DNA from: Plicaturopsis crispa FD-325 SS-3
Taxonomy: Eukaryota; Basidiomycota; Agaricomycetes; Amylocorticiales; Amylocorticiaceae
Reading direction: 5' to 3'
DNA length: 64,000 nucleotides
Assembly (NCBI GenBank): GCA_000827205.1
Contig: KN832562.1
Location: 248,001-312,000 of the forward strand
The position numbers and the translations under genes are program-made. Below the pieces are notes generated by a model. The model did not search any database, had not been told where the DNA came from, and saw only the letters and a program-made list of their open reading frames with translations. Positions 45,189 to 58,353 of the stretch are shown here, piece after piece (the stretch's first letter is position 1; each line of letters opens with the position of its first letter).

Positions 45189-45196
45189 GACTCGGT
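45189..45196. repeat. 8-bp target-site duplication, left copy (GACTCGGT)
   Basis: Identical to 46119-46126 on the other side of the element. Confidence 0.88.
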
Positions 45197-45419
45197 GGGG
45201 CAGGCTGCGCTTGACCGGCCGTATAAGTGTATACGGTTTTACTAATAAACGCGTTCACGACCTACCACCAAAGCTTGTATACGGCCGGCCGTATAGTTTT
45301 CATGAACCATTGCAGACAACCACAATAGAATAGTTTTCATCCACCATCCGTCCCAAAATGGTTTCTACAAACCATTTTTAAACTTGAAACCGGCAAAATT
45401 GACTTTTTTATTACCATTC

Positions 45420-45512
45420 TGGGGAGTTGAACCCAAGCGCCCAGAAATGAAATGGTTCACAGAAACCATACAAAGTTGCTTGTTGACCGTTTAACCATTA
45501 GACTATCAGGTC
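45420..45512 (-). other. tRNA-like module 1 (A box and B box) inside the hAT-like element
   Basis: On the minus strand TAGTCTAATGGTTAAACGG fits a Pol III A box / D arm and GGTTCAACTCC a B box / T loop, about 60 nt apart. The T stem is nearly complete, but the acceptor arm does not pair, so it is not a working tRNA. It resembles a tRNA-derived SINE head. Confidence 0.5.
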
Positions 45513-45674
45513 TATTCTTCATAATAGATTCTGTTGACCATATTGCAGCCAAAGAAATGGTTTACATGACGCAAATTAACCAGGAATGGTCGTGGTAAAC
45601 CAAAATGACAATTTGGTTTGTAAATACTAAATTTTTGACACGTTATATATATACTGTACCAAAGCAGTGTAGTA

Positions 45675-45750
45675 TGGTCGTTTGGCACAGTGGTCCAGCG
45701 CGCCCGTTTCTTACAGTTGTCGCGCGTTCGATCCGCGGAGGGGTGTACCT
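45675..45750 (+). other. tRNA-like module 2 (A box and B box) inside the hAT-like element
   Basis: On the plus strand TGGCACAGTGGTCCA (45683-45697) fits an A box and GCGTTCGATCCGC (45724-45736) a B box, at normal tRNA spacing. The T stem pairs over four bases; the acceptor arm does not pair. It faces opposite to module 1. Confidence 0.5.
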
Positions 45751-46118
45751 TTTTATTGTGCGGCACAACCATTTTGATTTTGGTTTAGGCGCACTGTTCT
45801 CGAGATGGTTCACGGATACCGAACGCAATACGGTTTCTCTACACCGTTATGACCGACATCAGCTATGGTACTAGAAAACCATTCACATTTTTTTGGTGCC
45901 AGACAACTATATTCTGAAATCGATATGATTCCTGGAGACCATTCATGCCTCTCACCCTCAATTTGGTTTGCACAAACCGTATTCATGTTACTTCTGTGTC
46001 GTAAATGGTACCTCAAAACTATACGACCGGCCGTGAACGATTTTCAGTGTTAGGTCGTGAACGGCTTTATTAGAAAAACCGTATACAGTTACACGGCCCG
46101 CGGTGCGCAACCTATCCG

Positions 46119-46126
46119 GACTCGGT
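46119..46126. repeat. 8-bp target-site duplication, right copy (GACTCGGT)
   Basis: Identical to 45189-45196. Confidence 0.88.
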
Positions 46127-56804: not shown

Positions 56805-58353
56805 TTCGGTTTCTGTTTAATGGGAAGCGGCGGGGGCGAAAGCAACACTCACCTTTTCCGACGTAGCGTATTTATACCTCACGAATATACGGGGCGTCTG
56901 TTTTCCCCCGAGGGAATGGTAGAACCGAGTTGGGATAGCTGCCATCAATATCGGCGGCGTTTCGTGGTGATATGTGGGCCAATATACGGGCGTCAATACT
57001 AGAGGAGAGAAGTAGTCAGAACGCGGCTAATGCTGCATTGCCTCTTCATCCGTCGGATTGACAGTCTCGAGTTTGAAACGAGGTACTGGGTCGACGAGAC
57101 TCGTAACGGAATTTGGTGCAATCGCGTATATTTTCTGAGCCTATTTGCCTGGGCGCATATACAAGCAGCAGAATATCTATGACCGACATCACATATGTTC
57201 AAGGAGCACCTAATTCACGGGAGGGCTCATGCCGTCAGGCTCGTTGATAATGAGGGACAGATGAGCTACTCACATAAGATTTTTCAGACAAACAACCCGT
57301 CATTTGGGCTTGGGTGGAGGGTTGTTGCTCGGCTTGCCGGGTATATTTGGTCTTCCTTCATCCCGGGCGATGGCGTTACTGGAAAGGCCGAACCTTAGAA
57401 CGGTGAGAGGACGAGTTAGATAAAATGCGTACAGGTTGTCGACTGTCAACATTGTTCGGCACGGATAGGTTGCGCACCGCGGGCCGTGTAACTGGATACG
57501 GGTTTTCACGACCTTAAACTTGAAGTATACGCTGGATAAATCAGCGCTCAGCCTCTGACCGCAAAGCTGATGGAGGATCGGAACTCACCGCTGAGAATGC
57601 TAGATAGCCGCTCGATGCAGCCCCATCTAACGAGGAGCCTTGTGTTTATATATTTCTGAGCGCCGCACTGCCCAGGTTTAAAATGAGTGAAAGGGTGGGG
57701 CGGTGTCCGCAGTTCCATTATTGCAGACACAGCAACCGGATCCTAGAACCCGGTCCCTGCCCAGACTTGCAAGACGCCGAACCCTCGAAGTCGTTTCAGC
57801 TCTTGTTGCGGGCACCTCATAGACTTATCGCGTTGGGATCGACGCCTCCATGACCTTCGTTTGAGTTTCCGAGTCGTTGAACAAAGCTGAGCCGCCAGTA
57901 GGAACAATCGGAACTAGCAGAAGACCGTGCTACCCCGACGAGCCTCGTGTAGTAGGGCTGTTCGGTGCGTTGCTTGTGCATCTGGCCATAGATACAGGAG
58001 GAACAAATCGTAGCTAGACAATGCCGTCTATCGTTATTCCTTGCCATTATTGTGAATTGAGTGCGTTGGAAACCACTGAGTTTTGAAGTTCAGTGTCATT
58101 TAGCCGAGCGTTCAACTAGACGCCGTAGCCAAATAGAGGCAAACAACGCATATTGAGCAGCCTCAAGACGTCCGCGTCAAGGCGTAGTAGCAAGGAAGTA
58201 AATAACAACTTTCAAGGTATGATTGTTATCGATAAATATCCGCATAAAAAGCCGTACAAGGATGACTGGAAAATCCGCGAGACAGGTGTTCCCGGTTTAT
58301 ATCGGGCACGCCGCAGTGCGCACAAGCTACTACTGCGACTTGACCGTTGCTGC
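56805..58353. other. Intergenic, about 1.5 kb, with a transposon-end fragment
   Basis: Between the ferritin-like gene and the aldehyde dehydrogenase 3' end. Holds the hAT-like end fragment at 57462-57525. No gene recognised. Confidence 0.55.
57462..57525 (+). mobile_element. End fragment of the same hAT-like element family
   Basis: From CGGATAGGTTGCGC onward it repeats the right terminus of the 45-46 kb element (reverse-complemented) without a mismatch through CACCGCGGGCCGTGTAACTG, then loses similarity in steps (GATACGG, TTTTCACGACCT). The matching second end was not found nearby, so it is a partial copy. Confidence 0.75.

Follow-up and report, generated by a model that had tools for sequence, protein, structure and literature searches.

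What are two tRNA-like sequences, pointing in opposite directions, doing inside a single transposable element? The question was raised by an initial annotation of a 64-kb window of the Plicaturopsis crispa genome (C9:248001-312000, the whole stretch of DNA analyzed here), which offered three readings of the pair: captured tRNA genes, nested SINEs, or an element that uses Pol III promoters. Both modules are present as described, on opposite strands within one terminal-inverted-repeat element, and consist of the following parts.

45420-45512, minus strand: module 1, a predicted tRNA-like type-2 Pol III promoter, 27.3 bits
45505-45493, minus strand: A box of module 1, TAGTCTAATGGTT
45433-45423, minus strand: B box of module 1, GGTTCAACTCC
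45395-45398, minus strand: T4 run, the first downstream of the module 1 A box
45675-45750, plus strand: module 2, a tRNA-Ala-like head plus B box, 27.8 bits
45683-45695, plus strand: A box of module 2, TGGCACAGTGGTC
45725-45735, plus strand: B box of module 2, CGTTCGATCCG
45750-45754, plus strand: T5 run, 14 nt beyond the module 2 B box and possibly a Pol III terminator

The box scores use A- and B-box weights derived from 50 of the genome's own tRNA genes, with identical boxes counted once; the tRNA set is incomplete, with 53 Rfam tRNA matches from 63 of 681 candidates scored and three places not fetched. Under these weights the 50 genes score between 22.7 and 33.6 bits, and modules 2 and 1 rank first and second over both strands of the window, at 27.8 and 27.3 bits; the next pair scores 17.1 bits. 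The best A/B pair in 200 shuffled windows reached 27.3 bits (mean of maxima, 20.5); a lone module of this strength can thus arise in 64 kb, though not often. A pair of modules in one element exceeds chance: when the element was shuffled 20,000 times and searched on either strand, one module of at least 27.2 bits arose in 3 shuffles and both modules in none. The other fetched loci (83 kb) held one A/B pair of 24.3 bits, at ∼590 to 640 of L095, a locus with a hAT domain; its score is within the range of the tRNA genes.

Not all features of a tRNA gene accompany the boxes. The box spacing, initially called plausible, is 72 nt in module 1, within the tRNA range of 43 to 100 nt; at 42 nt, that of module 2 falls one below it. 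The partial pairing of the T arm was borne out, with 4 of 5 positions paired in each module by eye, and so was the lack of an acceptor stem, for which we counted by eye two Watson-Crick pairs out of seven per module, plus one G-T pair in module 1 or three in module 2. ARAGORN reported no tRNA in the window, a weak negative, as it reported a gene in just 13 of the 30 loci at which Rfam matched a tRNA. Rfam likewise detected no tRNA in the element, though it found all 50 tRNA genes; it gave a sub-threshold tmRNA match over part of module 1 (11.8 bits, E = 0.022). The RNAs fold no better than shuffled sequences (z = 0.19, -0.91, and 1.36). Most of the 50 tRNA genes as printed have introns, judged by eye. 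Alignment to the 50 tRNA genes gave similarity above that of shuffled sequence for both modules (module 2, score of 50 against a best of 38.5 in 300 shuffles; module 1, 41.5 against 36.5). The tRNA likeness is confined to the promoter boxes, and the tRNA structure is gone.

The element that carries the modules is delimited by the following features.

45197-46118, no strand assigned: the whole element, 922 bp, with GGGGCAGGCTGCGC...GCGCAACCTATCCG at its ends
45189-45196, no strand assigned: left 8-bp target-site duplication, GACTCGGT
46119-46126, no strand assigned: right 8-bp target-site duplication, GACTCGGT
45202-45318, plus strand: left terminal inverted repeat, 117 nt, 78% complementary to 45997-46113
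45997-46113, minus strand: right terminal inverted repeat, 117 nt, pairing with 45202-45318
45359-45979, no strand assigned: seven dispersed 16-bp palindromes, YGGT-N8-ACCR, starting at 45359, 45453, 45587, 45806, 45831, 45866, and 45964

A screen of the genome (33.2 Mb in 49 contigs) identified six full copies of this element and one partial copy, L014, whose left side consists of N and which was excluded from every copy count. Intact 8-bp direct repeats flank all six full copies, with a different repeat for each; those at the five copies other than the one in the window are AGTTGCCG, CGGAGCTC, GCCTCGGG, ATTTGCAG, and CTGTTTAC. Since each full copy has its own intact repeat, the copies are independent insertions; the element is treated as nonautonomous because of its size (922 bp). 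The element starts with five G residues in L009, L011, and L012 and four in the other three full copies. L008, L009, and L010 are 99.1 to 99.9% identical and L011 and L012 are 100% identical; between these groups and L013, identity is 93.8 to 95.5%. Most computations were run on the slice 45197-46119, one base longer than the 922-bp element used for the copy comparison and for the reading of ends and duplications. A one-mismatch search for the end pattern of the element performed at chance level (116 matches against 117 in the control) and for that reason was not used for copy counting. Elsewhere in the window, a 46-nt stretch at 57462-57507 on the minus strand repeats the element's right end at 96% identity; this is a lone end or a remnant, and no second end was noticed.

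The initial annotation had called the element hAT-like. That label is not supported and is probably wrong, as both the 16-bp palindromes and the right end have their match at a CxC4/KDZ locus on contig C2. Over approximately 102 nt, the right end has 76% identity with C2:17241-17341, which lies ∼0.9 to 1 kb downstream of a CxC4/KDZ transposase gene; in the open frames of this gene a CxC4 match (E = 5e-47) is followed by a KDZ match (E = 2.6e-4), the latter at 21.2 bits, below the Pfam cutoff of 26.6. The element resembles a nonautonomous DNA transposon of the KDZ (Kyakuja-Dileera-Zisupton) type. The C2 locus shows the right end only, the left end not being seen there, and no complete autonomous partner with both matching ends was found; nor do matching ends occur in the sequence covered around C17 and C24. 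At C24:170501-178500 (L101) there is an apparently complete CxC4/KDZ element with an 86-nt inverted repeat at 95%, flanked by the duplication GCAGCGGC, which is 8 bp long if both ends begin with GGGA and could also be read as 9 bp. By domain search, the genome has 46 KDZ-domain matches, 42 of them above the cutoff; these are pieces, so the genes are fewer.

A MITE of the hAT superfamily would account for 8-bp duplications just as readily, and the genome does contain hAT dimerization domains (18 matches with E values no higher than 1, of which 16 exceed the cutoff). We nevertheless consider this assignment very unlikely. Stretches around the 18 hAT-domain matches, at 16 separate places, gave nothing at E < 1 when compared with the element, against E = 8e-14 for the C2 KDZ locus, although these stretches were only ∼3 kb each. 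The duplications themselves do not discriminate, fitting the descriptions of KDZ (Zisupton and KDZ1) and hAT alike: Zisupton is described as producing 8-bp duplications, which fit hAT equally (PMC12730594), and the duplication length varies among the KDZ relatives described, with 7-bp duplications in two Kyakuja families reported to be without inverted repeats (PMC12730594), 8 bp in Cryptococcus KDZ1, and 4 to 8 bp in KDZ2 and KDZ3 (PMC12810828). The 117-nt inverted repeats of the element are closer to the repeats given for these Cryptococcus transposons, which measure 241, 139, and 169 bp in KDZ1, KDZ2, and KDZ3, respectively (PMC12810828). In its 8-bp duplications and long inverted repeats the element resembles the KDZ transposons described from fungi (PMC12730594, PMC12810828), and it shares an end and palindromes with a CxC4/KDZ locus of its own genome. 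It differs from them in its two tRNA-type promoter modules, which are absent from the stretches around three CxC4/KDZ loci (C2, C17, and C24); since no A/B pair there exceeds 16.6 bits, the modules are not a standard part of CxC4/KDZ elements.

The palindromes were counted as YGGT-N(5 to 10)-ACCR, and all 12 printed cases have N8. The seven in the element compare with a shuffle mean of 0.55, and none of 500 shuffles had as many. Both noncoding sides of the C2 CxC4/KDZ gene (L080, 4571-5170 and 8355-9340) are similarly enriched, with four palindromes in the 600 bp upstream (shuffle mean, 0.26) and five in the 3′ noncoding part (shuffle mean, 0.43), counts that 0 of 500 shuffles reached in either case. 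The coding part of the same gene has none, the C24 CxC4/KDZ element is without these palindromes, and a control of 15 kb from the window gave four against a shuffle mean of 5.06. One palindrome, 45453-45468, sits between the A and B boxes of module 1. The arrays are perhaps candidate transposase-binding sites.

Are the modules kept when the element spreads? Module 2 is found in all six full copies, at 25.5 to 29.5 bits, and module 1 in five of the six, at 27.3 bits, so the pair is not peculiar to the copy in the window, as the initial annotation had allowed it might be. The exception, L010 at C8:1473844, has lost 5 nt of the module 1 A box and has an intact 8-bp duplication around it. Past the module 2 B box, three full copies have T5 after 14 nt and three have T6 after 13 nt. 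The two modules have varied to different extents: apart from the L010 deletion, 0 of 24 box positions are substituted in module 1, and no part of the element varies more than module 2, which differs at 17 of 76 positions compared to 70 of 922 overall. Four of the 24 module 2 box positions differ between the window copy and L013, and the scores are nonetheless 27.8 and 29.5 bits. Simulated random changes retain the module 2 score at a frequency of 0.0001 to 0.0106, a value that varies with the copy taken as the start and with how CpG is weighted; this hints, from four changes, at selection on the module 2 boxes. Because each full copy found keeps at least one module, a borrowed cellular promoter is suggested.

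We then turn to the origin of the modules. A 16-mer from the head of module 2, CGTTTGGCACAGTGGT, occurs exactly at seven places in 33.2 Mb, namely, five copies of the element and two tRNA-Ala(CGC) genes, the anticodon having been read by eye. For module 1, an 18-mer from the A box gave 17 matches against 4 in the control: it is exact in four element copies, has one mismatch in a fifth, and at three mismatches matches four tRNA-Asp genes and eight other places. A tRNA-Asp parent for module 1 is thus suggestive only, the same mismatch level being found at those eight other places. We infer that the modules derive from tRNA genes or tRNA-derived repeats and were acquired before the six copies spread. 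A common origin of modules 1 and 2 was considered and is not supported (window copy, score of 17.0, with 123 of 500 shuffles as good); module 1 compared with the L013 version of module 2 did better, with 2 of 500 shuffles as good, which may reflect the shared B box.

Genome-wide box patterns extended these comparisons. The pattern built from module 2, TGGCNNAGTGGT-N29-59-GTTCRANYC, gave 16 exact matches and none in the control; six are in this element, five in tRNA genes, three in a second inverted-repeat element, and two in a TRIM-like LTR element. The module 1 pattern gave 11 exact matches, again with none in the control, comprising five in this element, four in tRNA genes, and two others, at C1:1468238 and C3:650310, which are tRNA-gene-like by eye. 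Among these 16 and 11 exact matches there was no free-standing copy of either module; diverged copies would escape such a search. Two of the three module-bearing families were found by way of patterns from module 2 and its relatives, so other box variants would escape as well.

The second inverted-repeat element has four copies (C7:88180, C1:1300760, C10:952540, and C10:554380; L109-L112 and L115-L118) and is rich in CCCTTAAG units, six to eight per stretch, a count made with no shuffle control. It has one A/B module followed by a T-rich run, scoring 28.6 to 30.1 bits in three copies; the boxes of the fourth score 18.3 and 11.6. Inverted ends are present in both copies read to both ends, and a 7-bp duplication, GAGATGC, was seen by eye in one of these and not in the other. 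This family is apparently unrelated to the KDZ-like element; its similarity to module 2 (1 of 500 shuffles as good) lies mostly in the A box.

The TRIM-like LTR element (L107, L113, and L114; C5 near 1336000 and C6:617500-618400) is 609 bp long, with 147-bp LTRs bounded by TG...CA; of the two copies that were read, one has the 5-bp duplication GATTC and the other CTTAC. Each LTR contains an A box, and a B box follows closely after the left LTR; the module scores 31.8 bits in the C5 copy, and the 16-mer of its A box occurs at nine places in the genome. Module 2 aligns with it over the A box and GCCCGnTTCTTACAG; two versions of the module score 42 and 48, and 0 of 500 shuffles reach either value. 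Since the shared GCCCGnTTCTTACAG was not seen in the printed tRNA alignments, module 2 may have come through a TRIM-like element. The same source is not supported for module 1, for which 25 of 500 shuffles were as good despite a 13-nt exact stretch.

Of the three readings offered at the outset, captured tRNA-type heads, or an element that may use Pol III promoters, fits best with the sequences compared here. We regard it as rather probable that the element is a nonautonomous KDZ-type transposon, moved by a CxC4/KDZ transposase and carrying two captured, decayed tRNA-type sequences. In such a scheme the CxC4/KDZ transposase would act on the ends of the element and move it, and the surviving part of the modules would be a TFIIIC-binding internal promoter; the captured promoters are perhaps still bound by TFIIIC. 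Because the module 1 A box reads leftwards and that of module 2 rightwards, the predicted promoters would fire from the center towards the two ends. A module 2 transcript of ∼75 to 80 nt would end at the T5 run that begins at 45750 on the plus strand, and a module 1 transcript of ∼115 to 120 nt at the T4 run at 45398 on the minus strand. Alternatively, the modules may do no more than bind TFIIIC, and this could leave the element accessible to its transposase. Binding or transcription of the boxes in vivo is possible, if somewhat doubtful.

How do other explanations of the pair compare? The modules may be passive passengers: pieces of tRNA genes, or of tRNA-derived repeats, taken up as filler DNA when the element formed, with boxes that persist only because the copies are young. 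This explanation falls a little short of probable in our judgment. In its favor, the tRNA structure has been lost, module 2 varies more than any other part of the element, and copies that are 93.8 to 100% identical have had little time for decay. The L010 copy, which lacks an intact module 1 A box, sits in an intact 8-bp duplication, and its deletion may postdate insertion. What filler DNA explains less readily is that the module 2 box scores hold despite four changes inside the boxes, that the two modules point in opposite directions with a T run downstream of each, and that two further repeat families of the same genome bear such modules.

Nested insertion, in which SINEs or TRIM-like retroelements inserted into the transposon and later merged with it, is quite unlikely. 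What speaks for it is that module 2 aligns with the TRIM-like LTR element across GCCCGnTTCTTACAG and the A box at scores that none of 500 shuffles reached, and there is a precedent in the butterfly SINE Metulj, subfamily 4 of which is described as embedded in another, unknown element (PMC4016481). The nested SINEs of the initial annotation are nonetheless a weak reading, as neither exact box pattern gave a free-standing module anywhere in the genome; in addition, no target duplications or tails were seen by eye around the modules, and the match of module 1 to the TRIM-like element is not significant. Least credible of all is chance, by which the modules would be A- and B-box-like strings of no tRNA origin. 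Pairs of 27.3 bits in 200 shuffled 64-kb windows and of 24.3 bits in 83 kb elsewhere show that single modules of this quality do arise, but both together appeared in 0 of 20,000 element shuffles, module 2 has an exact 16-mer in common with tRNA-Ala(CGC) genes, and the composite box patterns had no control matches.

SINEs and some TRIM retroelements, whose movement depends on RNA, characteristically have Pol III promoters. A DNA transposon of the cut-and-paste type needs no transcript of its own, and kept tRNA-type promoters would therefore point to another benefit, such as open chromatin made by TFIIIC or a small RNA. This is directly testable, given six full copies with two defined modules, one copy in which a deletion has naturally removed part of an A box, and the presence in this genome of another, apparently unrelated inverted-repeat family. 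The modules described here resemble tRNA-derived SINEs in having a decayed tRNA-like head in which the A and B boxes are kept and the cloverleaf is lost. They differ in having spread within an element with inverted ends and 8-bp duplications, in the presence of two opposed heads, and in the lack of free module copies among the exact pattern matches. A and B boxes are treated as marks of SINEs in reports on such elements (PMC4016481, PMC4524691). Cassandra, a plant TRIM retrotransposon, is described as having taken over a Pol III internal promoter related to 5S rDNA (PMC10853983), and the likeness is that of a mobile element with a captured Pol III internal promoter, predicted in our case; Cassandra belongs to the LTR retroelements and its promoter is of the 5S type, whereas the present element is a DNA transposon with tRNA-type boxes. 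The TRIM-like LTR element of P. crispa is, by analogy, a tRNA-type counterpart to Cassandra. Dada elements are also DNA transposons tied to tRNA genes, in that they are reported to insert into tRNA and snRNA genes (PMC3706591); there the genes are the target, and here tRNA-like sequence is inside the element. In the titles and opening lines of abstracts of the open-access literature, we found no description of a DNA transposon with terminal inverted repeats that carries tRNA-type promoters; this is weak evidence of absence.

A broader proposal, which we put forward tentatively and consider rather unlikely, is that in this fungus tRNA-type Pol III promoters have been recruited as functional components by two or more families of nonautonomous inverted-repeat transposons, and that the divergent pair, firing from the middle of the KDZ-like element towards both its ends, aids the access and mobility of that element through TFIIIC or Pol III activity (open chromatin or short RNAs). 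If true, it would mean that a trait known for retroelements arose repeatedly in cut-and-paste elements.
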